NCBI RefSeq assembly: GCF_018141525.1 | Contig: NZ_CP064655.1 | Location: 2,822,501-2,886,500, forward strand | Direction of reading: 5' to 3' | Length of the DNA: 64,000 nucleotides | Origin: Miltoncostaea marina | GTDB taxonomy: Bacteria; Actinomycetota; Thermoleophilia; Miltoncostaeales; Miltoncostaeaceae | In this document: positions 35,258 to 64,000 of the stretch, piece by piece | How positions within the stretch are numbered: position 1 is the stretch's first letter | Layout: each line of letters opens with the position of its first letter | Translations under genes and position numbers: made by a program | The notes under the pieces: model-generated | The model's input: the letters and a program-made list of their open reading frames with translations, nothing else | Told to the model about the DNA's origin: nothing | Databases searched by the model: none

Positions 35258-35336
35258 GGCGCCGGGGCGAGCGGACGACGGTGACTCCGCCGCAACGCCT
35301 CGTAGGGCGACCGGCGAACCGGCGCGATCACCCCGC

Positions 35337-35951: not shown

Positions 35952-36133
35952 GGGCGGGCGTCCTGCCCTCACGCGGCGGTCTCGTCGCGGTGTTCGCATC
36001 CGGGGCATCTCGTCGTCAACCATAGCCACGTCAATGCGGCGGCTGGGCGCCAAGCCGAGAGCCGGGGTCATCCGTCCCGGCGCGATGATGCGGCCACCCG
36101 CCATCGCGCTCGGCCGGCTCGCGCGGCGACGAC

Positions 36134-37018: not shown

Positions 37019-37222
37019 CGGCTCCTTTCATCCCAGCCGCGGCCGGGTCGGGAGGTTCCGGACGCGGGCACGAGCCGGAATCCCCTCGGAGTCGTTCGGG
37101 AACGGGCGGGACTCTAGGCGCGCAGCCGTAATCAGGTCAAGCGAGTCTCGCCGCAGCCCGGACAGCCGTACCCGCCGCGGCGCCCGCGACACGTCAGCGG
37201 GGCCGTGGGGCGGGAGTGGCCG

Positions 37223-37228
37223 TAGAAT
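37223..37228 (+). promoter_or_regulatory. Leaderless -10 box (TAGAAT) of the redox pair
   Basis: TAGAAT lies 9 bases before the ATG of the ResA-like gene, with no Shine-Dalgarno sequence between them. A transcript starting about 7 bases after the box would begin near the start codon. Confidence 0.45.
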
Positions 37229-37237
37229 CCGCTGGCG

Positions 37238-38583: not shown

Positions 38584-38637
38584 CGCCGGGCCGCTGCGAT
38601 CGCCGTCGCGACGCCGGCGACCGCACCGGGGGGGCGG

Positions 38638-39219
38638 CTACCCGCCCTCCGAGGCTCGCGCGTCGGTCTCCGACGGCGCGACGGCCGAGAGGAGTAACGC
38701 GCCGCCCGCGATGACGAGCATGTCCGCGACGTTGAACGGCGGCCACCGGAGCGGGTCGAGATAGTCGGTGACGCTCGAGCGCACGAGCCGCTCGCTGACG
38801 TTTCCGAGCGCGCCCGCGGCGAGCATGATGGCGCCATACGCGGCGGCGGGCCGGGCGGTGATCCGCCGCCACGCGAGGAGGGCCAGGGCCGGGAGAATCA
38901 CGGCGCCGGCCACGCCGACGATGCGGCCGCTGCCGGACAGCAAGCCGAGGGCCGCCCCGTCGTTGGTCGCGCTCGTGATCGACAGCCCCGGGGCGATCGC
39001 GTGGCGGTCGCCCGCCGGCATGGCGCTCCTGACTGCCCACCTGGCCATCTGATCGGCGATCGCCAGCGCAGAGCCGGCGATCAGGACGCCGACGAGCCGG
39101 GAGCGCGCACGCGCTCGTCGCCTCCGCAGCGACGCTTCGGTGACGGCCTCGGCCAACGACGAGGCGGGCGCGCCGCGCGATCGTCGGCCCTCGGACGGCC
39201 CTCGCTCAGTGATCGCCAT
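38638..39219 (-). CDS. lspA: Lipoprotein signal peptidase (LspA) with Asp-to-Glu change
   Basis: This 193-residue protein has four transmembrane helices and LspA blocks: ATNDGAALGLLSG (about 84-96), GALGNVSERLV (136-146), VTDYLDPLRWPPFNVADM. The second catalytic Asp (D166, FNVAD) is present. In the first block the family reads GNxxDR with a catalytic Asp, but here it is Glu143. Accessory LspA genes are known in lead-resistance clusters (pbrC). Whether the Glu form is active is open. Confidence 0.85.
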   Translation of the reverse strand: MAITERGPSEGRRSRGAPASSLAEAVTEASLRRRRARARSRLVGVLIAGSALAIADQMARWAVRSAMPAGDRHAIAPGLSITSATNDGAALGLLSGSGRIVGVAGAVILPALALLAWRRITARPAAAYGAIMLAAGALGNVSERLVRSSVTDYLDPLRWPPFNVADMLVIAGGALLLSAVAPSETDARASEGG

Positions 39220-39351
39220 GCCTTTCCGATACGCCGCCGATCCCTCACGATAGCCGCCCGCCGGCCGACCCGGGCACGCCCTCGACAGACGCGCCGCCAG
39301 GGTCGCTCGTCATCGGAAAACTGACGACGCGCCGTGGCATGATCGAGTCCT

Positions 39352-40062
39352 ATGCCCCGTCGCCGAGCGATCCCCCGCCATGCGACCGCAGCCGATCGGC
39401 CGACCCGCCGAGTCCGCCGCGCCGTCGCGGGCCTCGTCACCCTCCTCGCCCTCATCGCTGTCGCGGTGCAGCCGGCCGCCGGGCACGTCGGCGTCCTGCC
39501 GACGGAGGTGAAAGCTGGCGAGGCGCAGCGGTTCACCGTCCGCGTCCCCTCCGAGCGCGACGTGGACACCGTGGCGGTGGAGGTGACCTTCCCGGATGAG
39601 GTCACCGTCTACTCCGTGAAGCCGGAGCCGGGCTGGGACATCCGCATGCTCTACCGGCCCGACAGGCGCACGAAGGGCGTCGTCTTCAGCGGCGGGCGCA
39701 TCGGCCCGGGGCAGTTCCAGGAGTTCGACCTGCTCGGCACGCCCTCAGCGGAGGGGACCGCCGTCTGGCGCTCTCGCCAGACCTACGCGGACGGCGTCGT
39801 CAAGCCCTGGACCGGCCCGCCGGAGGAGCCCGGGGCCGCCGCCCCTGAGAGCGGCCCCTCCGAACCGGGCCCCGCCTCGGCGATGACGATCAGCCTGGGC
39901 GGCGCGACGCCTGCGGCCGCCGCGACCGGGGGCGGCGGCGATGACGACGCGTCGGCCGCGGTCTGGTTGGGACTCATCGCGATCGCGGTCGCAGCCGCGT
40001 CGGCGGTCGGTGTTGGTTTCCTGTGGACGACGCGGCCGGCGCCCCTGCCCGACGACGAATGA
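39352..40062 (+). CDS. YcnI-like copper-binding membrane protein (DUF1775)
   Basis: The 236-residue protein has a signal peptide ending at PAAGH. The mature N-terminal His (HVGVLPTEVKAGE) and a nearby Trp (GWDIRMLY) match the mono-His/Trp Cu(II) site known in YcnI. The beta domain is followed by a Pro/Gly linker and a C-terminal transmembrane anchor (about 205-228). It is coupled by ATGA to the CopC-CopD gene, as in ycnI-ycnJ copper-acquisition operons. Confidence 0.88.
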   Translation: MPRRRAIPRHATAADRPTRRVRRAVAGLVTLLALIAVAVQPAAGHVGVLPTEVKAGEAQRFTVRVPSERDVDTVAVEVTFPDEVTVYSVKPEPGWDIRMLYRPDRRTKGVVFSGGRIGPGQFQEFDLLGTPSAEGTAVWRSRQTYADGVVKPWTGPPEEPGAAAPESGPSEPGPASAMTISLGGATPAAAATGGGGDDDASAAVWLGLIAIAVAAASAVGVGFLWTTRPAPLPDDE

Positions 40063-41492
40063 CCCGGAGGCGACGGCGCACGGCGGTGTCGGCCCTCGTC
40101 GGCCTGCTGGTCGTCGCCCTACTGCTGCCCGCCACCGCGTTTGGGCACGCGGTCCTGAAGAGCTCGAGCCCGGCGGCGGACTCGAAGCTGGCCGCCAGCC
40201 CCGCAGCGGTGACGTTGACCTTCACCGAGCCGGTCCAGCTCCTCGAGGAGCGCGACGCCGACGTGGTCGACTCGGATGGCACGGTCGTCAGCACATCGGC
40301 GCGGAAGCTGCCTGGCGATGCGCGCGTCCTCGAGGTCGCGTTGAGGGCCGGGCTCCCGGAGGGGACGTACACCGTCCGCTACAAGATCATCGGCGCCGAC
40401 TCGCACGTGATCCGGGGGCTCTTCGTGTTCGGGGTGGGCACCGGCGAGCTGGAGGAGCCGTTCATCGGCGGCCTCGGGCCGGGCGGCCCGTCCGAGACGA
40501 GCCCCTGGGCGGTCAGCGCGCGCTTCCTCGAGCTCGTCGGGCTGGGTGGGCTGCTCGGCCTGGTGGCCTTCCGGTGGTTGATCTGGGCGCCCGCCCTGCG
40601 GCGTGCGCCCGCGCTGGCGGCCGGCGAGCGTGAGGCCGTCGCTGCCTGGGGACGCGACGCGTATTGGATCGCCTTCGGCGTCCTCGCGTTGGGTGCGATG
40701 CTCGCCGAGGGGTACCTGCTCGTCGTCCAGAGCGCGGGGGTGCTCGGCGTGAGCGTCCTCGCCGCAGCGCAGGACGCGACCGGCCTCAGCCAGGTGCTCG
40801 GGAACACGAGCATCGGATCGCTCGTACAGATCAGGGGCGCGCTGCTCTTCGGCGTCTTCGCCCTCGGCGCGGTCCTGTTCATGCGCGAGTACGGCGGCTC
40901 CGTCGCGCCGCGGCCGGCTCAGGCGTCGTACGGGCTGGTCGGGACGGTGGTGATCGCAGCCCTCCTGATCTCGGTGATGGGAGGTGTCGCCGCCCAGGGC
41001 CACCCGCAGGTGGCGCGCTTCCCGGCGGTGCAGATCGGGGCGCAGCTCGTGCATCTCGCCACCGTCGCGGTCTGGATCACGGGCCTCGCGTTGGTTGCGG
41101 TGTCCCTGCTGCGGGTGCCCCGCATCGCGCCCGACGGTGGCCCGGTCGTCTCAGCGCACCTGCTCGCCCGCTTCTCGCGCCTCGCGCTCGTCGTCGTCGG
41201 ACTCGCGATCCTCACCGGGGTCATCCGCTCGCTCGCGGAGCTGAGCGAGCCGCAGGAGCTCTGGGAGACGGCCTACGGGCGCAGCATCGTCTTCAAGCTG
41301 CTTCTACTCTGCCCGATCGGCTTCCTCGCGATGTACAACCGGCGGATCGTGACCGCGTTGCGTCGAGTGGAGCGGCCCAACCGAGCGACCCTCCGCCGGG
41401 TGCGGCGCATGGCGAGCGCCGAGTTCGCCCTGTCGATCAGCATCGTCGTCATCGCGTCGCTGCTGGTCGCCCAGGTCCCGGGCGGCTCGTAG
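40059..41492 (+). CDS. CopC-CopD fusion copper import protein (YcnJ-like)
   Basis: The 477-residue protein has a signal peptide, then a CopC domain with N-terminal His (GHAVLKSSSPAADSKLAASP) and DSHVIRGLFVFGVG. About eight transmembrane helices of CopD type follow (FLELVGLGGLLGLVAF; GHPQVARFPAVQIGAQLVHL; FSRLALVVVGLAILTGVIRSL). Such fusions move copper inward. Coupled to YcnI in front. Import next to exporters suggests copper delivery to secreted or membrane enzymes rather than plain resistance. Confidence 0.9.
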   Translation: MTRRRRRTAVSALVGLLVVALLLPATAFGHAVLKSSSPAADSKLAASPAAVTLTFTEPVQLLEERDADVVDSDGTVVSTSARKLPGDARVLEVALRAGLPEGTYTVRYKIIGADSHVIRGLFVFGVGTGELEEPFIGGLGPGGPSETSPWAVSARFLELVGLGGLLGLVAFRWLIWAPALRRAPALAAGEREAVAAWGRDAYWIAFGVLALGAMLAEGYLLVVQSAGVLGVSVLAAAQDATGLSQVLGNTSIGSLVQIRGALLFGVFALGAVLFMREYGGSVAPRPAQASYGLVGTVVIAALLISVMGGVAAQGHPQVARFPAVQIGAQLVHLATVAVWITGLALVAVSLLRVPRIAPDGGPVVSAHLLARFSRLALVVVGLAILTGVIRSLAELSEPQELWETAYGRSIVFKLLLLCPIGFLAMYNRRIVTALRRVERPNRATLRRVRRMASAEFALSISIVVIASLLVAQVPGGS

Positions 41493-41550
41493 CCCCCTGA
41501 TCTCCGGGGCCTCAGCCGGGCGCGGAGACATGTCGTCGCGCCGCGACGGT

Positions 41551-42759
41551 TCAACCGACGAGCAGCCCCGTCAGGTACATGACCGCCAGGCCGGCGAGGA
41601 AGCCGCCCACCACCCAGCCCGACCCGAGCCCGCCGGGCGCGCGCCGGGCCACGTGGCGGCCGACCTCGACCACGACCTGCGCGGCGGCCCCGACGGCGAT
41701 CGCGAAGAACACGACCGCGAGCACCTCGTCCGTGACGAAGCCGCCGATCCAGGCGCCGAGGATCGCCGGCGCGCCGGCCACGAGCGCCAGGACGGCGAGG
41801 CGCCCCAGCCCGACCGGTCGCCCCTCCGCCACCGGGGCGACGATGCCGAGGCCCTCGGTGACGTTGTGGACCATGAAACCCACGATCAGGAAGCTCCCGA
41901 GCGCCAGCTCGCCGAGGGCGAACGACGAGCCGATCGCCAGGCCCTCGCCGAGGTTGTGCAGCCCGATGCCCACGGCGACCATCGTCGCCAGGGCGAGCCC
42001 GGTCAGCGGTGACCCGGCCGTCGCCTCCGGCTCCCGACGCGCCAGCCGTTGGGAGACCCAGGTCAGGCCGAGGTAGCTGACCGCGACCCCGACAAGCACG
42101 AGGCCGGGCCCGCCGAGCGCCCCCGGAAGCGACGCCTGCAGTTCGAGCGCCTCGGCCAGTGCGTCGACCGCCAGGAAGGTCAGCAGCCCGCCGGTGAGGG
42201 CCATGAAGGCCACCAGCCAGCGCGGGTCGGCGCGACGCAGCGAGGGCAGCCACAGCATCCCGAGCGCGACCGGCACGACACCGACCAGGAAGCCGATCAA
42301 CGCGTAGCCGCCGATGCTCGAGCCGTCGACGCCGGGGATCGGGACCGCCGCCGGGACCTCGAACGTCGTCTGGATCCCCGTGGAGCTCGTGACGCCGATG
42401 GCGTACGGATCGTCCTCCACCCAGGCGTAGGGAATCTCGAGCATCGTGGAGCGAAGGCGGCCGAGGGTCTCCGGGCCGTCGGCGGTGAACGGCACGATCG
42501 CGTCGTCCACGGTCACGACGGCGATCGTCACGTCCTCCGGCTGCGGGTTCCGCACCGACACCCTGATCTCTCCCGGATGGAACTCGACGCGCCGGATATC
42601 GACCTCATCGGCCGGGGGCGGGTTGGCGCCGATGAGGCCCGTGATCGACCCCCCCGAGGAGACGAAGCTGCCGACGACCGCGACCAGCAGCAGGAGCGGC
42701 ACGACCGCGAGCAGCCGGCCGGACCACCAGCGCCGGCGGGCCGTCGCGGCGGTCGACAT
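41551..42759 (-). CDS. ZIP-family metal transporter with N-terminal beta domain
   Basis: The C-terminal 230 residues form a ZIP transporter of eight helices with the metal-path motifs GIGLHNLGEGLAIGSSF (TM4) and GFMVHNVTEGLGI (TM5). In front lie a transmembrane helix (about 15-35) and a 100-residue exported domain (VEFHPGEIRVSVRNPQPEDVTI ...) that resembles a cupredoxin-like beta sandwich. Such an extension is not standard for ZIPs. Coupled (ATGA) behind the multicopper oxidase gene, so the two act together. Confidence 0.85.
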   Translation of the reverse strand: MSTAATARRRWWSGRLLAVVPLLLLVAVVGSFVSSGGSITGLIGANPPPADEVDIRRVEFHPGEIRVSVRNPQPEDVTIAVVTVDDAIVPFTADGPETLGRLRSTMLEIPYAWVEDDPYAIGVTSSTGIQTTFEVPAAVPIPGVDGSSIGGYALIGFLVGVVPVALGMLWLPSLRRADPRWLVAFMALTGGLLTFLAVDALAEALELQASLPGALGGPGLVLVGVAVSYLGLTWVSQRLARREPEATAGSPLTGLALATMVAVGIGLHNLGEGLAIGSSFALGELALGSFLIVGFMVHNVTEGLGIVAPVAEGRPVGLGRLAVLALVAGAPAILGAWIGGFVTDEVLAVVFFAIAVGAAAQVVVEVGRHVARRAPGGLGSGWVVGGFLAGLAVMYLTGLLVG

Positions 42760-43772
42760 CAGGCGTCGACCACGTCGAAGAAGCCCATCCAGCCGAGTTC
42801 GGTGAACTCGGACTGGTGGGCGTGGAACATGAACCGGCCGGCGTTGTGCCAGTCGATCTCGATGATCCCGCGCTCGCCCTGGCACTGCATGACCGTGTCG
42901 GTGTAGTCGAACTGGTCGGTGCTGCCGGTGCGGTAGTAGCGGAAGAACTCGCCGTGGAGGTGGAACGAGTTGATGAGGTCGAACTCGGTCAGGTTGGCGA
43001 GGTAGATGCGCAGCGTCTCCGAGCGGCGCACCCGGATCGGGTAGCGCGCGTAGTAGAAGGCCCGCCCGTTGACCGAGTAGAAGTTGTTTTCGCCGTCGCC
43101 GTCGGTGTCGTAGCCGTTCATCACGAGGACGATCTCTCGCGCGGGCCGGCGCGGCTTGGGCGGGTCGATGATGAAGGCGCCGTAGAGCCCCTTGTGGATG
43201 TGCTTCTTCAGCGGCGCCGCGTGGCAGTGATAGAGCTGCATCCCGTACGGCCGGGCGGGGAACCGGTACGTGAAGGCCCCGCCCGGCTCGACGATCTCGA
43301 ACACGCCGTCCATGTCGGCGGGGTGGATGCCGTGGAAGTGGATCGTGTGCGGGTGCGACCCGCCGTTCGCGAAGACGACCTCGAGCACGTCGTCCTCGGT
43401 CGCGCGCAGCACCGGCCCGGGGACGGTGCCGTTGTAGGTCCACGCCGGGAAGGTCACGCCCTTCGCGACCTCGATCTCGCGGTCGAGCGCCGTCAGGCTG
43501 TACCGCCGGACGCGGCCCGGCCGGTGAGGCAGCGCGGGGGGCGGCCTCAGCAGCGCGTCGAGGTCGTCCGGGCCGCCCGGTGCCGGCACCGCCTCGCCGA
43601 TCATCGCCGCATGCCCGAGCGCCGCATGGGCATCGCGCGAGGCCAACCCCGGCGGCGGCGTGCCCGGCCCCGTGACGGCCGGCGCGGCGGCCAGGCCGGC
43701 CATCGGCAGCGCTGCGAGCACCGGTGCCGCGCCGATCAGGGCCTGCCTACGGGTGAAGCGTCTGCTAGCCAC
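42759..43772 (-). CDS. Two-domain multicopper oxidase, Tat-exported
   Basis: This 337-residue protein has a twin-arginine signal (RRFTRRQALIG) and two cupredoxin domains. Copper ligands are clear: HTIHFHG, YHCHAAPLKKHIHKG in the first domain and SFHLHGEFF, FHAHQSEF in the second. Short two-domain oxidases form trimers with trinuclear sites at the interfaces and oxidise Cu(I), Mn(II) or phenols. It leads an operon with the ZIP transporter and is divergent from the CadC-like gene. Confidence 0.9.
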   Translation of the reverse strand: MASRRFTRRQALIGAAPVLAALPMAGLAAAPAVTGPGTPPPGLASRDAHAALGHAAMIGEAVPAPGGPDDLDALLRPPPALPHRPGRVRRYSLTALDREIEVAKGVTFPAWTYNGTVPGPVLRATEDDVLEVVFANGGSHPHTIHFHGIHPADMDGVFEIVEPGGAFTYRFPARPYGMQLYHCHAAPLKKHIHKGLYGAFIIDPPKPRRPAREIVLVMNGYDTDGDGENNFYSVNGRAFYYARYPIRVRRSETLRIYLANLTEFDLINSFHLHGEFFRYYRTGSTDQFDYTDTVMQCQGERGIIEIDWHNAGRFMFHAHQSEFTELGWMGFFDVVDA

Positions 43773-43903: not shown

Positions 43904-44275
43904 ATGACCTCCGACGACACCTGCGAACTGCTCTGCCTCGACGCGGTCAAGGCCGACTCGTTGCGCCGTCGCCAGCCTGATCCGGAAAACCTCGAGCGCG
44001 CGGCCGAGGGCGCGAAGGCGCTCGCCGACCCGACGCGCCTGGGGCTTGCGGTGGCGCTCCGCGACGCCGCAGACGAGTGCTGCGTGTGCGACCTGGCCTT
44101 CGTGATCGGCCGCCAGGACAAGCTGGTCTCGCATCATCTCCGTCTGCTCCGCGGCGCCGGCCTGGCCGCGTCCCGCAAAGACGGACGGATGGTCCTCTAT
44201 CGGCTGACCGAGCGCGGCGAGGAAATGCTCGAGAGCGTGCTGCCGCGCGCGGGCGCCGGCCTGCTCGCTCGATGA
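43904..44275 (+). CDS. cadC: CadC-type ArsR/SmtB metal-sensing repressor
   Basis: This 123-residue winged-helix repressor has cysteines at C7, C11, C60 and C62 (DDTCELLCLD; DECCVCDLAF). The spacing fits the Cys7/11/58/60 alpha3N site by which staphylococcal CadC senses Cd, Pb and Zn. The recognition helix is KLVSHHLRLLRGAGL. The stop overlaps the ATPase start (ATGA), so it represses its own operon until soft metals bind. Confidence 0.93.
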   Translation: MTSDDTCELLCLDAVKADSLRRRQPDPENLERAAEGAKALADPTRLGLAVALRDAADECCVCDLAFVIGRQDKLVSHHLRLLRGAGLAASRKDGRMVLYRLTERGEEMLESVLPRAGAGLLAR

Positions 44276-46683
44276 GCGCCGCGTCGGTGGCCGCCGCGAC
44301 GGCCTCCGCGAGCGCAGGCGGCCAGCGCTTCCGGGTGGCAGGGATGGACTGTGCATCGTGCGCGCGTACCGTCGAGAGGGTCGTCGAGGGACTCGAGGGC
44401 GTCCGCGAGGCGACGGTGTCCTTCGGCAACGCGACCCTGGTGGTCGATGGCGACGTCGAGTCCGCCGCCGTGCAGGCGGCTGTGCGCCGCGCGGGCTACT
44501 CGGCGGAGCCCGCCGGGCGGCGCCCCGACGCCACCGCGCCGTTCTGGCGGCGCAGCGCGCGCACCGCCTCGACGACCGCCTCGGCGCTGCTGCTGCTCGC
44601 CGCGCTCGCCGCCTCGCTCTCGCACGCCCCTCCGGTCGTCAGCGAGCCGCTGTATCTGCTCTCGATCGGGGTCGGCGGCTGGCCTATCGCCCATGCGGCT
44701 GTGGCGGCGCTGCGGCGGCGCGCGCTCGATATGAACGTGCTGATGACGATGGCGGCGGTCGGCGCGGTCGGCATCAGCGAGTACGCGGAGGCCGCCTGGG
44801 TGGTGGTGCTCTTCTCCGTGGGCACGACGCTTGAGCGCCTCGCCCTCGAGCGCAGCCGCCGGTCGGTCGAGGCGCTGATGGACCTGGCCCCCGCGGAGGC
44901 GCTGCTCGTCGCAGACGGGATCGAGCGCGCCGTCCCCGTGGAGGCCGTTCCGCTCGGCGCGATCGTCTTGATCCGGCCGGGCGAGCGCCTTCCGCTGGAC
45001 GGCGTCGTGGAGCAGGGCGCCTCGAGCGTCGACGAGTCCGCGCTGACCGGCGAGTCGGTGCCGGTCGACAAGGAGCCGGGCGACCATGTCTTCGCGGGCA
45101 CGCTGAACGCGTACGGCGCGCTCCGGGTGCGGGTGACGTCGTCGGCGGCGGACTCGACGCTGGCCCGGCTCACGCAGCTGGTCACCGAGGCGCAGGGGAG
45201 CCGGGCGCCGTCGGAGCGGTTCGTCGATCGCTTCGCACGCGTGTACACGCCGCTGGTGTTCGCAGCCGCGCTCCTGGTCGCAATAGTGCCTCCGCTGCTG
45301 GGCGGCGAGCTCGACACCTGGCTCTATCGAGCGCTCGCACTTCTGATCGTGGCCTGCCCGTGCGCCCTGGTCATCTCCGTGCCGGTCAGCGTCGTCTCTG
45401 CCATCGGCGGGGCGGCGCGACGTGGCGTCCTGATCAAGGGCGGCCAGGCGCTGGAGGACCTCGGTGGCGTTCGCGCGGTCGCGCTGGACAAGACGGGGAC
45501 GCTGACCGAGGGCCGCCCGGAGCTCGTCGACATCACCACGGTCAGCGGCATCACCGAGCTGGAGGCGCTCACGCTCATGGCGGCGGTCGAGCGCAGCTCG
45601 GAGCACCCACTGGCCGTCGCGATCGCGCGGACCGCGCGCGAGCAGGCGCTGGCGCTCCCGGACGCCACCTCGTTCCAGGCGCTGCCGGGCCGGGGCGCGG
45701 TCGCGACGATCGCCGGCCGCCGGCTGTGGGCGGGTGGGCCGCGACTGGCCGTCGAGCAGGGCGCGAGCCTGCCAGACGCGCTCGAAGCGGTGGAGGCGCA
45801 CGGGCAGACGGCCGTGCTGCTCGGGGAGGGCACCCGGGTCCTCGCGGTCTTCGGGCTCGCCGATCGGCCGCGTCCGCACGCGCAGTCGGCTGTCCGCGCG
45901 CTCGGCGAACGCGCCGGCGTGGAGCACGTCGTCATGCTGACCGGCGACAGCGAGCGGGTCGCGCGCACCGTCGCCTCGCTCACCGGCGTGACCGAGTGGC
46001 GGGCGGGCCTGCTGCCCGAGGACAAGCTGGCCGCCGTTCGGGACCTGGCCGAGCGTCACGGCCCCACGGCGATGGTCGGCGACGGCGTCAACGATGCCCC
46101 GGCGCTCGCAGGGGCGACGGTCGGCGTGGCGATGGGGGCGGCCGGCAGCGACGTGGCGCTGGAGTCCGCGGATGTCGCGCTCATGGGCGACGAGCTGGAG
46201 CGCCTGCCGGACGCGATCCGCCACAGCCGCCGGGCGCTCGCGATCATGCGCCAGAACGTCGTCGTCTCGCTGGCGACGAAAGCCGTCTTCGTGGCGCTGG
46301 CACCGGCCGGCTACGTCACCCTCATCGTCGCCGTCGCGGCGGACATGGGCGTGTCCCTCCTGGTCACGCTCAACGGGCTCCGCCTTCTGCGCGGCGTGGG
46401 CGCGCCGAGCAACAGGGAACCGCGGAGCGGTGCCACCCCGGCGGAGGCGTCAACCGCCGTCCCCTCATGCTGCGCGACCTCCCCATTCGCGCGCACCGCC
46501 AACGACGGGTCGTCGCAGCATTGCGACGGCGCCCTCATCGTCCCGGTGGGCGACGCCGGGCCGTCGGACTGCGGTTGCGGCCCTGCCGCCGAGCCGGCGA
46601 GGGCGCCCGGGACGTCCGTGTGCGGATGCGATGGCGACTGCTGCTCCTCCGTCGCCACCGAGGCTGGAGGGGCGTCGGCGTGA
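44272..46683 (+). CDS. cadA: P1B-type Cd/Zn/Pb-exporting ATPase with Cys-rich tail
   Basis: The 803-residue pump has one N-terminal HMA domain (GMDCASC, C27/C30) and eight transmembrane helices with CPC in VACPCALVISVP. Further motifs are TGES, the phosphorylation site DKTGTLTEG, the HP motif SSEHPLAVAI and GDGVNDAP. It exports soft divalent metals. The last 90 residues are unusual: they contain CC, CGCG, and CGCDGDCC clusters and may act as a metal-binding sensor or donor. Coupled to cadC. Confidence 0.93.
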   Translation: MSAASVAAATASASAGGQRFRVAGMDCASCARTVERVVEGLEGVREATVSFGNATLVVDGDVESAAVQAAVRRAGYSAEPAGRRPDATAPFWRRSARTASTTASALLLLAALAASLSHAPPVVSEPLYLLSIGVGGWPIAHAAVAALRRRALDMNVLMTMAAVGAVGISEYAEAAWVVVLFSVGTTLERLALERSRRSVEALMDLAPAEALLVADGIERAVPVEAVPLGAIVLIRPGERLPLDGVVEQGASSVDESALTGESVPVDKEPGDHVFAGTLNAYGALRVRVTSSAADSTLARLTQLVTEAQGSRAPSERFVDRFARVYTPLVFAAALLVAIVPPLLGGELDTWLYRALALLIVACPCALVISVPVSVVSAIGGAARRGVLIKGGQALEDLGGVRAVALDKTGTLTEGRPELVDITTVSGITELEALTLMAAVERSSEHPLAVAIARTAREQALALPDATSFQALPGRGAVATIAGRRLWAGGPRLAVEQGASLPDALEAVEAHGQTAVLLGEGTRVLAVFGLADRPRPHAQSAVRALGERAGVEHVVMLTGDSERVARTVASLTGVTEWRAGLLPEDKLAAVRDLAERHGPTAMVGDGVNDAPALAGATVGVAMGAAGSDVALESADVALMGDELERLPDAIRHSRRALAIMRQNVVVSLATKAVFVALAPAGYVTLIVAVAADMGVSLLVTLNGLRLLRGVGAPSNREPRSGATPAEASTAVPSCCATSPFARTANDGSSQHCDGALIVPVGDAGPSDCGCGPAAEPARAPGTSVCGCDGDCCSSVATEAGGASA

Positions 46684-47765: not shown

Positions 47766-48314
47766 TGCAGATGGGCGGGGCGCTGGCGCCGCATGGTTCC
47801 CTATCGGCGGATGGCCGCCGCCCTGGAGTACCGGCGCGCGAGCGACCGACGTCAGCGAGGGTACTCCACCCGCGCCACGGAGCGGACCACCGGCCGAGGG
47901 CCGGATGTCCCGGACGTGCGGTGACGCCGCTCGAGGTTGCGCCTGCGACCTGGGCGCCGGAACGAGATGACGAATGCGGGTCCCGTGGACAGGAACCTCG
48001 CGCACAAACTGCGCACCCGGAGAGCCGGGACGTTCGTCGCATGGCAGCGGACGGACTACGGCGCATCACGGGATGCCCATCACCGCCGTCGCCCGCCGTC
48101 AGTTACAGCCGTCACACGGCTGTCGCCAGCGAGACGTCGTGGACGAGGTTGTCGACGCTGAGATCGGCGCCAGCGTGCTGGGTTGACAACCAACGGCCCG
48201 TGCGACCATAAATCCGCACCGGTGCCGAATGCGTGTCCGCGTCTTCTGAGGTCGTCGCGCTTGCGGTCAGCGCCGACCTGCAGGAGGGCACGACCACGAG
48301 CGTCCGGACATTCC
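47766..48314. other. Non-coding or unassigned stretch
   Basis: About 550 bp without a convincing gene. Long frames here extend upstream from the UPF0104-like gene and lack recognisable sequence. A TTGACA at 48183 with CATAAA 18 bases on points to the plus strand, but nothing lies behind it on that strand. Confidence 0.45.
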
Positions 48315-48458
48315 TTAGGCGGTCAGGACGACGACCCGCCCGCGCTGGTCGCCCATTCGCACGAGCCCGCCGGCGGCGGCGAATGCCACCACCCCCACCA
48401 GCGCGATGAGCATGGCCGCCATCGACCAGGCTCGCCATCTCCGCAGGGTCCGTCGCAT
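48315..48458 (-). CDS. Small single-TM protein (47 residues)
   Basis: This short frame starts MRRTLRRWRAWSMAAMLIAL and has one transmembrane helix (about 12-32) flanked by basic residues, then a short polar tail with GDQRGRVVVLTA. It stops at TAA. A dyad with TATAAC lies directly before the ATG (48461-48480), so expression could be leaderless and regulated. It has no homologue that I recognise. Confidence 0.5.
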   Translation of the reverse strand: MRRTLRRWRAWSMAAMLIALVGVVAFAAAGGLVRMGDQRGRVVVLTA

Positions 48459-48460
48459 CT

Positions 48461-48480
48461 ACTACATAGGTTATAGGAGT
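48461..48480. promoter_or_regulatory. AT-rich imperfect dyad with -10 box before the 47-residue protein
   Basis: ACTACATAGG-TTATAGGAGT is an imperfect inverted repeat in otherwise GC-rich DNA. The minus strand reads TATAAC as a -10, about 11 bases from the ATG. The ACTACAT half resembles BlaI-type half-sites and the CCTACACT half-site at 50935. Confidence 0.45.
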
Positions 48481-48579: not shown

Positions 48580-49086
48580 CTAGGACGAAGTGACGAGTAC
48601 GCGCTCCACCGGCACCGGATTCTCAGTGAGGTCGAGCACGGGGCAGTGATCGTCGACCGCCTCTGCCAGCGCCTCGTAGCGTTCGCGCGGCTCCGGCCCC
48701 TCGAGCATCACGCGCAGCCGGATGGCGCCGAACCCCGGCCTCACCTCGTCGTCCAGACCGAAGAAGCGCCGCAGGTCGATATCGCCCTCGGCCTCCACGC
48801 GAACGCTGTCCAGAGGGATTCCCAGCTGAGCGGCCCACACCCGGTACGTGATCGCCTGGCATGTGCCCAGCGCGGCGAGCGCCAGCTCCACGGGGCTGGG
48901 ACCCTCGTCGGTGCCCCCGAGCGCGGTCGGTTCGTCCACGACGACGGAGTGCCGGCGGACGGGCGCTTCGCAACGGACACCCTCCACGAGATCGCTCGCG
49001 ACCCGCAGCGAGAGCGCGGCGCGATGGGGCTCGGCTCGGAACGCCTCGACCACGCTGGTGAGGGGGATGGCGCTCGTCGTGCTCAT
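48580..49086 (-). CDS. OsmC-family peroxidase (copy 1)
   Basis: The 168-residue protein has the OsmC fold with both redox cysteines: the peroxidatic C76 in ALGTCQAITYRVWA and the resolving C148 in DHCPVLD. The segment GGTDEGPSPVELALAALGTC is the family core. OsmC/Ohr proteins reduce organic hydroperoxides. Its upstream region holds the motif AACACCGTTGAGAAT, which recurs before the second OsmC gene. Confidence 0.9.
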   Translation of the reverse strand: MSTTSAIPLTSVVEAFRAEPHRAALSLRVASDLVEGVRCEAPVRRHSVVVDEPTALGGTDEGPSPVELALAALGTCQAITYRVWAAQLGIPLDSVRVEAEGDIDLRRFFGLDDEVRPGFGAIRLRVMLEGPEPRERYEALAEAVDDHCPVLDLTENPVPVERVLVTSS

Positions 49087-49504: not shown

Positions 49505-50494
49505 TCAGACGACCCCGCGCATGGCCGGGCGTCGCGCGCGGGCGATCATGGCGCGCAGCGCCATTAAGAACGCCAGGAGAACGGCCGCGCGCGCGAGGCA
49601 GGCCACCGGCATGGCCAGCATGCTCTCCCGGCTCATGGGTACCGCCTCCAGCGGGTCGCCGCCGGCGGGCGGGGCGACCAACACGGCGGCGGCCACCGCC
49701 ACCGGCAGGACGGCCCCGGCGAACGAGTGCGCGAGGAGCCTTCCGGGCAGCCGCAGCGCCGGTGGGGGCGCCCCGTGCAGAGCGTCGACGCGCGATGCCA
49801 GCTGGCTCGCCGCCCCCGGCACCGCGGCCGCAGACATCGGAGGCGCCGCGTCATGGACAGCGAGCAGGGCCTTGGCCAGCGCTCGCCTCCCCGTCTGCCG
49901 GGCGGCCTCGCGGTCGGCGTTGAGTTCCCGGCGCAGGCGCCCGTGAGCCGCCAGGGCGGCCGCGGCCGGCACCATCCAAAGGGCCGCCGCACCGGCTGCC
50001 GCGAGCACCTGGCGCAGCGGGTCGCGCCGGCGGGCATGGGTGGCCTCGTGGGCCAAGAGTGCCTCGAGGGCGTCCGGCCCCAGGGAGCCGACCAGGCCAG
50101 TGCTGACGACCACGCGCGGCCACAGCAGCCCGGCGCAGAAAGCCAAGCGTTCGGAAGTGGCGCAGACGACCAGCCGGCGAACGCCGAGGGCTTCTGCGCG
50201 GGCCGCGAGCCCGGCGTCCCCGCCGACCGCGCACGCGTGCGCGCAGCGAAGAGCGCGCCGGCCGATCCGGACCTGTCGAGCGAACTGCACGAGGCCCGCC
50301 GCGACGGCCGAGGCCGCCAGAACAAGGATCGTGAGGCCCAGCAGCGCCCCGCCGAGCGCCCTGAGGCGCACGCAGGCGTCAAGGAGCGCGCCGAGCGCCT
50401 CGACGCGGCCGGTCAACAGTGCGGCGACCATGGCCAGCGGCAGGGCGAGCGCCGCCGTCACGACCGCGGCGCGCGCCAGCGGTCCGACCTTCAC
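49505..50494 (-). CDS. M56-family (BlaR1/MecR1-like) membrane metalloprotease
   Basis: This 329-residue protein has four or five hydrophobic helices and the zinc motif H149-E-x-x-H153 (LLAHEATHARRRDPL). A downstream ELNADREA supplies the third ligand. In BlaR1 systems the protease responds to a signal and leads to cleavage of BlaI. This copy has no C-terminal penicillin-binding sensor domain, so its signal is unlikely to be a beta-lactam. It overlaps the BlaI-like gene by ATGA. Confidence 0.88.
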   Translation of the reverse strand: MKVGPLARAAVVTAALALPLAMVAALLTGRVEALGALLDACVRLRALGGALLGLTILVLAASAVAAGLVQFARQVRIGRRALRCAHACAVGGDAGLAARAEALGVRRLVVCATSERLAFCAGLLWPRVVVSTGLVGSLGPDALEALLAHEATHARRRDPLRQVLAAAGAAALWMVPAAAALAAHGRLRRELNADREAARQTGRRALAKALLAVHDAAPPMSAAAVPGAASQLASRVDALHGAPPPALRLPGRLLAHSFAGAVLPVAVAAAVLVAPPAGGDPLEAVPMSRESMLAMPVACLARAAVLLAFLMALRAMIARARRPAMRGVV

Positions 50495-50901
50495 TCTTCC
50501 GGTTCTTCCAGCAACGCGCGCAGCCGCGCGAGCTGCTCGGGATGACCCTCGCGCATCCGGGCGGCGAAGGCCGCGAGCGCGACCTCGCCGTGCGCGCTCA
50601 GCAGGCGGTCGATCGCCTCGCGCGAGAGCGCCGCCTCGACACCCGAGCGGTCGACCGCGGCCCGATAGAGATCGGCGCGGCCGACGCGACGGCGCGTCAG
50701 GAGACCGCGGGCAGCGAGGCGGCTCATGAGCGTCAGCACCGTCGTGTAGGCGAGGTCGGCCCCGCCGGCGCGGAGGTGCTCGGTCACCTCGCGCACCGTG
50801 ACCTCCCCCATCTCCCAGAGCGCCTCGAGCACGGATGTCTGCCGCGCACCGAGGGTGCGGGCCTGCGGGCTGGGGGATGGGTCGGCCGAGGATGGGCTCA
50901 C
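50491..50901 (-). CDS. BlaI/MecI/CopY-family repressor
   Basis: This 136-residue winged-helix protein has LGARQTSVLEALWEMGEVTVREVTEHL and the recognition helix AYTTVLTLMSRLAARGLL, as in BlaI/CopY. The C-terminal dimerisation part is LSREAIDRLLSAHGE. No CopY-type C-terminal CxC pairs are present, so release most likely depends on cleavage by the coupled M56 protease. The GTG at 50901 was chosen; an ATG at 50931 would begin almost inside the operator. Confidence 0.88.
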   Translation of the reverse strand: MSPSSADPSPSPQARTLGARQTSVLEALWEMGEVTVREVTEHLRAGGADLAYTTVLTLMSRLAARGLLTRRRVGRADLYRAAVDRSGVEAALSREAIDRLLSAHGEVALAAFAARMREGHPEQLARLRALLEEPEE

Positions 50902-50934
50902 GACCGCCAGGCTAGCGCAGGCGACGCGCATATG

Positions 50935-50954
50935 CCTACACTGAAAGTAGTAGG
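50935..50954. promoter_or_regulatory. BlaI-type operator between divergent operons
   Basis: CCTACACTGA-AAGTAGTAGG is a 20-bp dyad with perfect CCTAC/GTAGG ends. It sits between blaI-M56 (minus) and the small-membrane-protein operon (plus). The TAC-rich halves resemble known BlaI operators, so one repressor could control both directions. Confidence 0.6.
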
Positions 50955-50976
50955 TAACGGCGACAAAGGATGCAGG

Positions 50977-51198
50977 ATGGACACGCTGCTATTGCCCTTG
51001 ATCGCTTTGGCCTGTCCGCTCGGGATGGTCCTGATGATGCTCTTCATGGGCAAGGGGACGATGGGCGGACACCAAACCGACGCCGAGCCGGCGGGCCCCG
51101 AGCCCAGCGCGGACGAGAGCCTGGAGACGCTGCGCGAGCGCCGTCGGCGCATCGACCGACGGATCGCCCAGTTCGATCGCGAGCGCTCGGGGAGGTAG
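50977..51198 (+). CDS. Small membrane protein, DUF2933-like
   Basis: The 73-residue protein has one transmembrane helix (LPLIALACPLGMVLMMLFMG, with one Cys) and a charged coiled segment (SLETLRERRRRIDRRIAQFD). It is preceded by AAGGA. Short proteins of this type recur in metal-resistance clusters; their role is unknown to me. First gene of the operon facing blaI. Confidence 0.7.
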   Translation: MDTLLLPLIALACPLGMVLMMLFMGKGTMGGHQTDAEPAGPEPSADESLETLRERRRRIDRRIAQFDRERSGR

Positions 51199-51204
51199 GC
51201 GCGG

Positions 51205-51414
51205 ATGGAGACAGCGATCGTGCTCATCGCCGTGCTGGCCGCCGCTGGGGCCTGCCCGCTGACCGCCTTGATGCAGCGCCGACGAGGCCGAGCCGCGAGC
51301 TGCTGTAGTGGACCGCGCGAGCGCAACGGCCAACTGGCGCCTCCGCCGGCCGACCCCGAACGGGTCGGGGCTCGCGTCGCCGCGCTCGAGCGGGGCGAGG
51401 AGGGGGACCGGTGA
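51205..51414 (+). CDS. Small single-TM protein with CC motif
   Basis: The 69-residue protein has an N-terminal helix (AIVLIAVLAAAGACPLTALM) and then a basic stretch with a CC pair (RAASCCSGPRE). It lies 6 bp after the preceding gene and overlaps the next by GTGA. Three cysteines in a small membrane protein beside metal genes hint at metal binding; that is a guess. Confidence 0.65.
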   Translation: METAIVLIAVLAAAGACPLTALMQRRRGRAASCCSGPRERNGQLAPPPADPERVGARVAALERGEEGDR

Positions 51415-52301
51415 GCCCGGCTCGGAGACGCCCTCGCCGTACCGGGCGCCTGTCGATCGCCGGCCTGCTGGTGGCGGCCATCCTGGCCGCCCTCGCCGGC
51501 TGCTCGTCGAGCTCCTCCGACGATGCGCCCGCCTCGGGCTCGCTGGCGCAGGTGATGGGCAACATGCACGCCCATAGCTTGGCGGTCGATCCGGGCGATT
51601 CCGACGGGCTTCTGCTCGGTCTGCATGGCGGCCTCTACCGCTCCGACGACGGCGGGCGACAGTGGCGCCAGGTCGGCCTCTCCGGCGACGACTCGATGAA
51701 CGTGGTCGGCGGCCGCGGCGGCGCGCCCCTGTGGGTTGCCGGCCATGAGGTGCTCGAGCGCTCCACGGACGGCGGGCGCACCTTCGAGGCGGTGCGCCCG
51801 ACAGGCCTACCCGGGCTCGACCTGCACGGCTTTGCGGTGCGGGAGGAGCGTCCCGAGGAGATCTACGCCGCCGTGTCCGGCGAGGGTCTGTATCGCTCGA
51901 CCAACGGCGGGCGCTCCTTCGGCCTGGTGACTACGGAGGTCGGGGCCAGCGTCTTCGGGATGGCGGTGGCGGGCGACGGCACCCTGTTCGCCGCCGACCC
52001 CAGCGAGGGGCTTCTGATCAGCGACGATGGCGGACGGACTTACCGTCGGCCTCTTAGCGGCGAGGGCCTGGTGAGCGTAGCCCTGGAGGCGCGACAGCCC
52101 GGCCTGGTGCTTGCCGGCGGGCCCGGCCTCTTCGTCTCGCGCAACGGCGGACGCACCTTCGAGGAGGGCTTCACCAACGCGCAGCTGGCGGCGGTTGCAA
52201 TCGCGCCGGGCGACCCGCAGCGTGCGTATGCCATCCGCGTCGACGGGGTCGTACTCGTCTCGTCCGACGGCGCTCGCACGTGGTCGGAGGCGGGCGCGTG
52301 A
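51411..52301 (+). CDS. BNR-repeat lipoprotein (F510_1955-type glycosylhydrolase-like)
   Basis: The 296-residue protein has a lipoprotein signal with LAALAGC. A beta-propeller follows, built from repeated SxDGGRxW/F motifs: YRSDDGGRQW, ERSTDGGRTF, YRSTNGGRSF, LISDDGGRTY, FVSRNGGRTF and VSSDGARTW. The family name implies a hydrolase, but BNR propellers are also binding modules. The segment MGNMHAHSLAVDPGD is typical of this group, which I associate with copper-related operons. Last gene of the operon. Confidence 0.82.
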   Translation: MSPARRRPRRTGRLSIAGLLVAAILAALAGCSSSSSDDAPASGSLAQVMGNMHAHSLAVDPGDSDGLLLGLHGGLYRSDDGGRQWRQVGLSGDDSMNVVGGRGGAPLWVAGHEVLERSTDGGRTFEAVRPTGLPGLDLHGFAVREERPEEIYAAVSGEGLYRSTNGGRSFGLVTTEVGASVFGMAVAGDGTLFAADPSEGLLISDDGGRTYRRPLSGEGLVSVALEARQPGLVLAGGPGLFVSRNGGRTFEEGFTNAQLAAVAIAPGDPQRAYAIRVDGVVLVSSDGARTWSEAGA

Positions 52302-52635: not shown

Positions 52636-53689
52636 TCAAGCGGCCAGAGCGCGCGCGGCGCCTACCGGAGCAAAGGGCTCGTTGCGGGTGAGCATGTGCC
52701 AGATCGCCTCGGCCAGGCGCCGGCGATGTCGACCTGGGCGACCTTCGGCCCGCGCTGACGTCCCAGGCGCGCCTTGGTGCGCTGGTAGCGCGCGCGGTAG
52801 ACCGGGTGCCGGCACGCGTGGGTGGCCGCCTCCATGAGGGCCCAGCGCAGACAGCGGGGCCCGGCGTGGGTGAGCGGGCCGCGCCGGTCGGTGGAGCCGG
52901 ACTGGTAGACCCGCGGGCACAGGCCGGTGTAGCCGCACAGCGTGGCCGGGCAGGAGAAGCGGGCGATGTCGCCGATCTCGGCGCCGATCGTGTAGCCGAG
53001 CACCCAGGCGATCCCCGGGGCGCTCATCAGTAGCGGGACGTAGCGGTGATCGGCGCCCAGGGCGCGCAGCTCGCGGTCGATGCCGGCGATCTGACGATCG
53101 AGGTCGGCGATCATCTGCAGCGCGGCCTCGACCCCGCCGCGCCATGGCTCGGGGAGATCGAGCCGGCCCAGCAGCTCGCGCCCGGCCCGTCCGAACAGAT
53201 CCGACACCGGGCAGGCGTGGCCGAAGGCGAGCAGCTGAGCGTGGATGCGGTGCTTGAGCGAGGAGCGCTTTCGCACCAGGTAGAGGCGCCAGCGGGCCCG
53301 CTCACGTTCGGCGCGCTGGGCGAAGGCGGGCAGCCAGATCGCCGGGACCAAATCGCGACGGCTGAGCTCGGCCAGCACCCAGAAGGTGAAGGGGCTGGCG
53401 CCCCTGGCCGACCCGTCGCGCCAGACCGGCGAGCCCGCTTCGTCCCCGATGCGCTGGAGCGCTGCGGGCCCCGTTCATCGACTCGATCGCCGCCCAGGCG
53501 TCGATGCGATCGGTCTTACAGGCGAGCTCCACGGCCCCGTGACCATCCGGGGCGTCGGCGACCTCGACCTCCCACCCGCCGTCGGCATCCGGCAGGGCGG
53601 CGCCGGTCTCCCAGGCGCTCGCCCCGCTCATCAAGCAGGCAGTAGTCCAACCGCCTGCGGCTGAGATCCAATCCGGCATGCAGCATCAT
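52636..53689 (-). pseudogene. IS110-family transposase, scrambled and frameshifted
   Basis: The start is MMLHAGLDLSRRRLDYCLLDERGERL (RuvC-like DEDD N-terminus) at 53689. The C-terminal part is well preserved (MSAPGIAWVLGYTIGAEIGDI, FSCPATLCGYTGLCPRVYQSG, GPRCLRWALMEAATHA). Near 52723 one missing G breaks AQVDIA-RRLAEAIWHMLTRNEPFAP. Between 53383 and 53591 conserved blocks are out of order and two are inverted. The gene cannot make an active enzyme as read; misassembly is a real possibility. Confidence 0.85.
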
Positions 53690-53766: not shown

Positions 53767-54282
53767 TCAGACGCGGTTGACCTCGCCGGTGATCGGCGTC
53801 GCATTCTTGGCGTTATCGAACATCGGAGACGTCCGCTCGGCCGCCTGGCGGATCTCCTCAAGCTGCGCAGGCGAGGCGTCGGAGTCGACCTGGACCGTAT
53901 AGCGGAGGCTCGTGAACCCGGGCCGGACGTCGTCGTCCAGCGCCAGATACCCGCGCAGGTCGTAATCCCCGGTTACGTCAATGCGCAGGTCTCGGAAGTC
54001 AATGCCACGCTTCGCCGCCTGCGTGACCCACCCGATCGTGAGGCACGTTCCCACGGAGGCAAGCAGCAGCTCCATCGGGTCGACCGCCTCGTCCGTTCCG
54101 CCGAGAGGCGCCGGCTCATCGGTCTCGATCGAGAACGAGCGGGCGACCGTTCGCGCGCGGGCCCCGTCCTCCCAGGACGTCACGGTGCTGAAGGTTCCTC
54201 GCCCGACCGTCGGATCCTCGGCCACGGCCGAGCGCGTCGTATCGAACGCGGACAGGTCAAGAGTAGTGCAGCTTCGTGCCAT
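53767..54282 (-). CDS. OsmC-family protein (copy 2), second cysteine lost
   Basis: This 171-residue OsmC-fold protein has the first redox cysteine C80 in LLLASVGTCLTIGW. The position of the resolving Cys reads ERTSPMFDN, i.e. Ser instead of Cys. It may use another thiol or have a different role. The upstream motif AACACCGTAGAGATT and GGATTTAGGAGG are shared with copy 1. The ATG follows TAGGAGGA at ideal spacing. Confidence 0.88.
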   Translation of the reverse strand: MARSCTTLDLSAFDTTRSAVAEDPTVGRGTFSTVTSWEDGARARTVARSFSIETDEPAPLGGTDEAVDPMELLLASVGTCLTIGWVTQAAKRGIDFRDLRIDVTGDYDLRGYLALDDDVRPGFTSLRYTVQVDSDASPAQLEEIRQAAERTSPMFDNAKNATPITGEVNRV

Positions 54283-54555: not shown

Positions 54556-56774
<2,219 letters not shown>

Positions 56775-56778
<4 letters not shown>

Positions 56779-57113
56779 GCGGCGCCCCGGCGCCGGCCGC
56801 GGCCGTAGTTCGGGCAGGAGGCGATCCGCTCGCCGGCCCGCGCGAGCAGGGCGTCGGTCACGCCGAGGAGCTCCTCGACGCCCTCTGCGAGCCAGTAATG
56901 CACCTCGCGCCGGCGGCGCTCCCGCTCAGCCAGCCCGCACTCCCAGAGGCAGGCGAGATGCGTCGACGCGTTCGGCTGCGAGATCCCGGTCGCCGCTACG
57001 ACGTCGGTCACGCGCGCAGGCGCCCTCCGCAACAGCTCGATGATCCGTCCGCGGTTGGGATCCGACAAGCCGTGAAAGAGAACGGTGCGCACCTCCAGGT
57101 CATTCATATCCAT
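56775..57113 (-). CDS. cmtR: CmtR-like Cd/Pb-sensing ArsR-family repressor
   Basis: This 112-residue winged helix contains ISQPNASTHLACLWECGLAE. Counting from this start, cysteines lie at 55, 59 and 100 (the last in ERIASCPNY). The spacing (4, then 41) is the same as C57/C61/C102 of mycobacterial CmtR, which binds Cd(II) and Pb(II) through the DNA-binding helix and the C-terminus. It is translationally coupled to the ATPase. The ATG at 57113 was chosen; ATG 57107 and TTG 57125 are alternatives. Confidence 0.92.
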
Positions 57114-57131
57114 TGACGGTAGCAAATATGA
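57104..57131. promoter_or_regulatory. Probable CmtR operator
   Basis: TCATAT (57104-57109) and ATATGA (57126-57131) form an inverted repeat with a 16-bp spacer around the start of the cmtR-like gene, in locally AT-rich DNA. Position and style suit an ArsR-family operator. Confidence 0.55.
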
Positions 57132-62791: not shown

Positions 62792-64000
62792 TCAAAGTTC
62801 CAGCGAGCGGCCTGCGGCGCGCGGCGCGCTGGAGGGAAGCACCCTCTGCGCGACCGGCCGGACCTCCATCGCCCTGGAGGCAGTGCCGATAGAAGACCTG
62901 CGGTACAGCGGGTCGACGGACTCCGTCGCACGTCCGAGACGCTCTCCCAGGTCGATCGCAAGGCCGGCGGCCTGCGTCCGTGACCACGTCCGCTCCAGCG
63001 CCTGTGCGAGTCGCTCCGGTTCGTGGTGGACCGCGAACACCTCGAGGTCCAAGCGGTGGCGCGAGCCAGCCACGTATGCCCACTCCCGCCCGCCGCGCTC
63101 CGAGGTGGCGAGCAGGTAGGTCCTATCGACGGTCGCCCCCTGGCTGACGTGCCCGGTCATCGCGTACCCGTGCATCGCGTGGCGAAGGTAGTCGGCGGGG
63201 AGCCACACCTCTCTCCCATCGTCGGTCCACACCACGAGCGCTTTGGCGCGCTCATCGAGGCCCGTCACGATGCCTCGGGTGCCGTTGCGCACGTCGAGGC
63301 GGTAGTGGTTCCGCCGGCAGATCAAGCGGTCACCGATCGCCCATTCGCGGCCATCGGCGACCATCCGCCGATCCGACAGGCGCCCGGCGGCATCCAGCCG
63401 CGCACGGGCCATCTCGTTCAGCCGACGGACTTCGCGTCGGTCGTGGGCGATGATCAGTGCGCCGCCCGGATCGCCCAGGGAGGTCGCCACCCAGGAGCGG
63501 ATGAGGGCCTCGCGAGCGTGCCGTGCGTCGTCGAAAGCTTGCAGGCGCCGATGTTCGGCCAGGAGACCGATGGCGTCCGCCACCCGGCCCTCCGCGAGCG
63601 CGCCGGCCACGCGCCGCTGCAGCTCCGTGCGCTGCCGGCGATTCCCGGAGAGCTCTGCGGCACCCAGGCGATCACAGAGCGCGGCGAACCCGCCCGCCGC
63701 GTCGACCGCCTGAAGCTGGCCGCGATCACCGACGAGGATCAGACGTCCACGCCTCGAGGCCACGACGGCGACGAGCCGCTCAAGCGCGCGCGTCGGCATC
63801 GTCGACGCTTCATCGCAGACCACCACCGCCCCCAGCGGGACGGCTTCCTCGCCACGCGCGGCACGCTCGAGAATCAGGGCTGCTGTCTCCGCGGTGATGC
63901 CCGCGCTGCGCCGCAGTACCTCGGCCGCCTGCGCCTGCCAGGCGGTGCCGACGACCGGGACTCCCGACGCCTCGTAAGCCTCCCTGACGGCCTCAAGGGC
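62792..64000 (-). CDS. traA: TraA/MobF-type conjugative relaxase-helicase, C-terminal part (5' truncated by window edge)
   Basis: The frame enters from the right edge with SGVPVVGTAWQAQAAEVL. It continues as a RecD-like superfamily 1 helicase: Walker B VVVCDEASTMPTR, motif III ILVGDRGQLQAVD, motif V HGYAMTGHVSQGATVDRTY and motif VI EWAYVAGSRHR. This is the C-terminal helicase of MobF relaxases, which nick oriT and unwind the transferred strand. The relaxase domain and Walker A lie beyond 64000. The tail from about LYRRSSIG is non-conserved. It is on the opposite strand to the transfer operon. Confidence 0.9.
   Translation of the reverse strand, partial: ALEAVREAYEASGVPVVGTAWQAQAAEVLRRSAGITAETAALILERAARGEEAVPLGAVVVCDEASTMPTRALERLVAVVASRRGRLILVGDRGQLQAVDAAGGFAALCDRLGAAELSGNRRQRTELQRRVAGALAEGRVADAIGLLAEHRRLQAFDDARHAREALIRSWVATSLGDPGGALIIAHDRREVRRLNEMARARLDAAGRLSDRRMVADGREWAIGDRLICRRNHYRLDVRNGTRGIVTGLDERAKALVVWTDDGREVWLPADYLRHAMHGYAMTGHVSQGATVDRTYLLATSERGGREWAYVAGSRHRLDLEVFAVHHEPERLAQALERTWSRTQAAGLAIDLGERLGRATESVDPLYRRSSIGTASRAMEVRPVAQRVLPSSAPRAAGRSLEL

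Follow-up and report, generated by a model that had tools for sequence, protein, structure and literature searches.

A BlaI–M56 pair without a beta-lactam sensor in Miltoncostaea marina and its probable link to copper handling

What does a BlaR1-type protease respond to when it carries no beta-lactam sensor? The question is raised by positions 49505 to 52301 of a 64,000-nucleotide stretch of Miltoncostaea marina DNA (contig NZ_CP064655.1, positions 2,822,501 to 2,886,500; hereafter the window, to which all coordinates refer). Here the genes for a BlaI/MecI-family repressor and an M56 membrane metalloprotease face a divergent operon encoding two small membrane proteins, s1 and s2, and a BNR lipoprotein. 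We consider it probable, from gene families, predicted operators and gene neighbourhoods, that this sensorless proteolytic switch controls extracytoplasmic copper handling and that its signal is copper or copper-linked redox stress.

The BlaI–M56 pair and the facing operon

The repressor gene (50491-50931, minus strand) encodes 146 residues with a PF03965 Penicillinase_R winged-helix domain (E 2.9e-23; 82.9 bits against a curated cut-off of 22.6) and shares four bases with the start of the M56 gene (49505-50494, minus strand). The 329-residue product of the latter matches PF05569 (E 8e-13) and also PF01435, and displays the gluzincin zinc motifs HEXXH and EXXXD as HEATH and ELNAD. A family profile search found no penicillin-binding or transpeptidase domain in it at E 0.1, and the protein terminates just past its last helix (residues 289-321 of 329). 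An earlier sequence-only reading had described an M56 protease devoid of a penicillin-binding domain, paired with BlaI in a switch without a beta-lactam sensor, and both statements are borne out by the PF03965 and PF05569 matches and the lack of a transpeptidase hit. The fold of the protease in an AlphaFold model (18 sequences, pLDDT 81) is similar to those of ZMPSTE24/Ste24 and of BlaR1 from S. aureus (Foldseek probability 1.00, E 0.005-0.04; BlaR1 E 0.018).

The closest solved structure for BlaI is 2g9w (E 9e-8), which we take to be the Mycobacterium tuberculosis BlaI (Rv1846c). With the CopY family profile TIGR02698 the protein scores 34 bits, below the cut-off of 122, and it has neither a C-terminal CxC metal motif nor any Cys among its last 120 residues, so that direct metal sensing in the manner of CopY is unlikely and was rejected. 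Without that motif in BlaI, the protease is the expected point of entry for the signal, most likely at the membrane.

On the plus strand, the genes for s1 (50977-51198, 73 residues), s2 (51205-51414, 69 residues) and the lipoprotein (51411-52301) are tightly spaced or overlapping, the end of s2 running into the start of the BNR gene. The prediction that an operon of two small Cys-containing membrane proteins and a BNR lipoprotein faces BlaI–M56 agrees with the gene calls and family profiles. Some of these family matches fall below threshold: s1 is DUF2933-like but scores 19.0 bits with PF11666, under the curated cut-off of 21; s2 reaches only 15.7 bits with PF12669 (cut-off 27); and the BNR/YCF48-like lipoprotein, which matches PF14870, is related to F510_1955 at 112 bits with NF045728, under the cut-off of 175. 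Three relatives of s1 do exceed the PF11666 cut-off (22.1-29.9 bits).

The small protein s1 has a Cys-Pro and a Met-lined helix, in which Cys13, Met17, Met20, Met21 and Met24 share one face (200-300 degrees). The Cys is present in 61/61 of the s1-type open reading frames (ORFs) listed and a Met at +11 in 60 of them. The Mets at +4, +7 and +8, likewise found in all 61, were not counted as conserved, because the search pattern P[LV]GM[GV][LA]MM already demanded them. This arrangement makes it probable that s1 is a membrane peptide that binds Cu(I), with Cys and Met as ligands; it may serve as a buffer, as a sensor subunit or in another role. Its distribution is patchy, with matches in 16/296 genomes of a phylum sample and in none of the eight listed members of the family outside the genus.

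Predicted operators in the window

The dyad CCTACACTGAAAGTAGTAGG occupies positions 50935-50954 between the divergent BlaI and s1 genes, exactly where the sequence-only reading had put it. It overlaps two -10-like hexamers assigned by eye, TACACT on the plus strand (50937-50942) and TACTTT on the minus strand (50949-50944); a scan for sigma-70 consensus promoters found none. In other actinobacteria the DNA upstream of s1 and BlaI often carries CTACTAT-G-N5-T(A/C)GTAG (CTACTATG-N5-T(A/C)GTAG), and a TAC/GTA dyad at the BlaI promoter is conserved across loci in both sequence and position. The dyad of the window is thus a member of a family-wide predicted operator. As a hairpin it was rejected: a 41-nucleotide DNA fold gave z -1.5, with 17/200 shuffles equally good, which is no evidence for such a structure.

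A second predicted operator, CTACTACATAGGTTATAG, lies at 48459-48476 (read as TACTACATAGGTTATAGGAG at 48460-48479). With up to three mismatches, the canonical form TACTACATATGTAGTA has a single match in the 64 kb, at 48460-48475, where 0.01 would be expected, and a scan for the family operator (score at least 11 of 13) matches only the dyad and the second site. In the 3.37-Mb genome the pattern CTACTACN{3,7}RNNNTA, composed after both sites had been seen, has four matches, namely these two sites and two within ORFs; the reversed-pattern control has 18. A weight matrix was also built from 26 hand-picked spacer-7 sites of relatives, the window sites being left out. Among its distinct matches in the window, 48457 ranks second (15.5) and 50934 fourth (13.5), and the best scores in 30 simulated windows had a mean of 11.9 and a maximum of 15.8. 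By the matrix alone both sites are therefore only moderate candidates; both are one base shorter than the usual spacing in relatives. Three further operator-like matches (36324-36346, 32960-32982 and 43036-43058) were dropped because they lie inside predicted genes. The first two of them lie in two similar genes of the copper island described below, 32782-33417 and 36134-36730, which share a YYAHMQ/FYYAHMQ-coding stretch (CTACTATGCCCACATGCAG) that mimics the operator at the DNA level.

What did the second site control? It adjoins the ATG of a decayed SCO1/SenC gene (48112-48458, minus strand), of which a 47-residue ORF is the 5' part (phmmer 4e-18). With a Sco protein of the same genus as tblastn query, residues 69-88 and 171-216 were recovered on the minus strand in different frames, and residues 119-143 in inverted orientation on the plus strand. 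Only fragments remain in this copy, and neither the CxxxC region nor a complete PF02630 domain was found in it. A second genome of the genus (G119, locus L048) shows the undamaged state: the homologue of the 47-residue ORF is there an intact SCO1/SenC protein of 221 residues (32.8 bits against the PF02630 cut-off of 22.8; CxxxC motif CTAAC), and the predicted operator TACTATACGCTGCGTAGTAG stands immediately 5' of its ATG. Because the intact gene has an operator at the same place and the window holds only pieces of the gene, the second site is best described as a predicted operator that has outlasted its copper-chaperone gene. The sequence-only reading was right that a site of the same kind as the dyad occurs here; the 47-residue protein that it placed behind the site turned out to be a broken gene remnant. 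Elsewhere in the genome three SCO1-family genes still have open frames, including the one at 35337-35951.

Linkage and target genes in related loci

The link to copper was followed in 54 named actinobacterial s1 loci, taking 5 kb around s1; four of these (L089, L094, L096 and L113) may coincide with contigs of the genomes that carry G labels. BlaI occurs within this distance in 28/54 loci, a P1B ATPase in 26, M56 in 19, a BNR protein in 15, an s2-like ORF in 11, CopC/CopD in seven, Sco1 in four and a multicopper oxidase in three. In loci named Solirubrobacterales, Solirubrobacteraceae, Thermoleophilaceae or Siliceabacter BlaI is present in 11/12, the remaining one (L100) being a 4.7-kb contig. 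This linkage is far above background, since the PF03965 matches listed across 99 genomes of the class to which M. marina belongs number 63, an estimated one BlaI-family match per about 4 Mb. In relatives the module adjoins copper-type P-type ATPases, CopC/CopD, DUF305 and Sco1, and in L070 and L094 BlaI, M56, s1, BNR and a Cu-type ATPase all run in the same direction. The ATPases were classed as Cu type or Cd type by signatures in transmembrane segments (TM) 7 and 8. A Cu-type TM7 or TM8 signature is present in 24 of the 38 ATPase ORFs of at least 500 residues in the examined loci, some of which are duplicates, and the only Cd-type TM8 signature is that of the window's own ATPase at 44077-46683.

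The predicted operators point in the same direction. Using an operator rule with a score of at least 12, the 17 loci with both BlaI and M56 (duplicates removed) contain 44 predicted operators in 262 kb, compared with 11 for the reversed pattern and one in simulated sequence; 43 of the 44 are intergenic, though intergenic DNA makes up 23% of the sequence. Where BlaI is accompanied by a weak M56 or none (16 loci, 260 kb), 31 operators were found and eight with the reversed pattern, and the 23 loci without BlaI gave six in 345 kb and 18 reversed. The rule was built on sites ahead of s1 and BlaI and is partly circular for those genes, not for other targets. Fifty genes stand behind 42 of the 44 operators, and among their Pfam counts are BNR 5, DUF305 4, BlaI 4, Lgt 3, DUF4396 3, DUF2933 3 (E 0.001), redoxins 3, methyltransferases 3, P-type ATPases 2 and alpha/beta hydrolase 1. 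CopA-type ATPases, CopC/CopD, Sco1 and s1 are among the genes behind these operators. In G119 a third predicted operator precedes a TlpA-like/CcdA pair. The sequence-only reading had suggested metal or envelope stress as the signal. The comparison favours copper over a general metal or envelope signal, given the Cu-type ATPases, DUF2933, CopC/CopD, Sco1 and DUF305 that adjoin or follow this operator.

The three Lgt (prolipoprotein diacylglyceryl transferase) matches behind operators appear, judged by the N-termini, to be the genes at L090 8094-8852, L074 3255-4550 and L068 3203-4006. The copper response may include lipoprotein processing.

Proposed mechanism and alternatives

We infer from these arrangements DNA binding by BlaI, proteolysis by M56, induction by copper and copper binding by s1. 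In the proposed cycle BlaI would occupy the dyad at 50935-50954 and block both divergent -10 regions, thereby repressing its own gene and M56 together with the facing s1, s2 and BNR genes. The site at 48459-48476 would formerly have controlled the Sco1 copper chaperone. Rising copper or copper-linked thiol stress on the outside of the membrane would activate M56, which would then cleave or inactivate BlaI in the cytoplasm, by analogy with BlaR1, so that the genes are expressed.

M56 might itself be the membrane copper sensor, with an outer-face site, possibly shared with s1, that replaces the penicillin-binding domain. We regard this extension as tentative and rather doubtful. The site would consist of Cys41 in the first loop, on the outer side by our topology reading and invariant in 18/18 M56 sequences, and of the last membrane helix, which opens with a CMxxM-like motif (Cys in 15/18, the final Met in 17/18). 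As a copper-specific feature the outer-loop Cys was rejected, being also present in M56 proteins of loci without s1; the CMxxM motif was seen neither in the latter nor in the weak M56 sequences examined. If the idea holds, BlaR-type proteases would include a class of copper sensors acting through repressor proteolysis.

Several observations weigh against copper control as proposed here. No BlaI lies within 5 kb of s1 in 26/54 loci, which means that s1 does not require BlaI. The Cys of the CMxxM motif is replaced in both M56 proteins of the genus (SMLAM in the window, DLADM in G119), and this loss weakens the sensor idea for the window's own M56. The three methyltransferases and the alpha/beta hydrolase among the 50 operator-downstream genes have no evident copper role. 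The nearest ATPases in both the window and G119 are of Cd/Zn type with ArsR regulators, not CopA. Three CsoR-family proteins are encoded in the genome and may do its copper sensing. Finally, an operator before the window's TlpA-CcdA pair (37307-38583), expected from G119, is not there.

A respiratory or redox switch is the alternative that survives best, although we hold it to be unlikely. Here electron flow or the extracytoplasmic thiol state would be sensed and the oxidase assembly factors Sco1, TlpA and CcdA controlled, with copper genes following because oxidases need copper. The operators of G119 ahead of Sco1 and of TlpA-CcdA are what such a switch would have, and the outer-loop Cys is common to actinobacterial M56 proteins; operators ahead of CopA-type ATPases, CopC/CopD and DUF305, however, suit copper load better than oxidase assembly.

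Less probable still is a switch for soft metals, in which the genus would have re-targeted the module to cadmium and zinc export. In G119 an ArsR regulator and a Cd-type ATPase come after BlaI–M56 in the same orientation, two pairs of ArsR and a Cd-type ATPase occur in the window, and the missing CMxxM Cys of both same-genus M56 proteins would agree with a change of metal. Yet the Cd ATPases are served by ArsR regulators of their own and lack an operator of the BlaI family, and both operators of the window precede copper-type genes, the DUF2933-like s1 and the Sco1 remnant.

A classical response to beta-lactams or cell-wall stress, relayed by a partner sensor, is very improbable: BlaI–M56 pairs are known for it and the sensorless M. 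tuberculosis BlaR is linked to BlaC (PMC5473688, PMC9834060), but the window genes scanned include no beta-lactamase or penicillin-binding protein and in relatives copper-type genes make up most of the targets.

Comparison with known systems

Copper control by a sensorless BlaI–M56 pair would combine familiar parts. The staphylococcal BlaI-BlaR1 and MecI-MecR1 systems have the same repressor Pfam family, the M56 motifs HEXXH and EXXXD and an operator with TAC/GTA half-sites; in contrast to BlaR1 and MecR1, the protease described here has no C-terminal penicillin-binding sensor, and the target genes are of copper type rather than beta-lactam type. BlaR1 cleavage of its repressor (PMC9834060) supplies the analogy for the mechanism. 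Closer is the M. tuberculosis pair BlaI (Rv1846c) and BlaR (Rv1845c), likewise actinobacterial and with a protease that lacks the sensor domain. The targets reported for it differ, comprising blaC, cytochrome bd and ATP synthase genes, and a DUF2933/BNR operon is not named in the available part of that report (PMC5473688). A separate paper notes that, in a copper-deficient medium, blaI is among the genes raised in a sigC mutant (PMC7924339).

CopY/CopR repressors share the superfamily and the copper target genes. CopY binds metal by a C-terminal CxC (PMC7253601), whereas this BlaI has no such Cys and is partnered by M56; the cop box TACANNTGTA, as defined in that paper, is present in neither window site. 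In Alteromonas and relatives small DUF2933 membrane proteins also occur beside CopA copper ATPases, but the regulators listed for them are of MerR type instead of BlaI–M56 (PMC8478169).

No description of a copper-linked BlaI–M56 switch was found in the literature searched, in which subscription papers were mostly out of reach, so that this is no proof of absence. The parts of the switch are already known, and its copper-linked form appears undescribed in that literature. The signal of mycobacterial BlaR is described as unclear or unknown, for M. tuberculosis in particular (PMC9834060, PMC5473688). The same question stands for the sensorless BlaR-type proteases of actinobacteria at large, for one group of which neighbourhood and shared operator suggest copper. 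If this is right, a proteolytic route would be added to bacterial copper sensing.

Genomic surroundings in the window

A dense copper island extends over 34673-43604 with CopC, Sco1, TlpA-CcdA, DUF1775, a CopC-CopD fusion, a ZIP-like membrane protein and a multicopper oxidase. Its members include the intact SCO1/SenC gene mentioned above (minus strand), the pair of a TlpA/ResA-like thioredoxin and a CcdA/DsbD-like protein (plus strand), the CopC-CopD fusion (40086-41492, plus strand; PF04234, PF05425) and the multicopper oxidase (42759-43604, minus strand; PF07731, PF07732). Pairs of ArsR and a Cd/Zn-type P1B ATPase flank the BlaI–M56 module at 43904-46683 and 54556-57125.

Because the window holds an integrase and a conjugative coupling protein, the copper/cadmium island may be carried on an integrative conjugative element. 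The metal genes are flanked by a phage-type integrase (13563-14660), a TraG/TraD-like type IV secretion system coupling protein (27071-28747) and a RecD-like helicase fragment (62792-63826). Two OsmC-like relatives (48580-49086 and 53767-54282) bracket the module, the second having an IS110-type transposase (52662-53378) as a neighbour.

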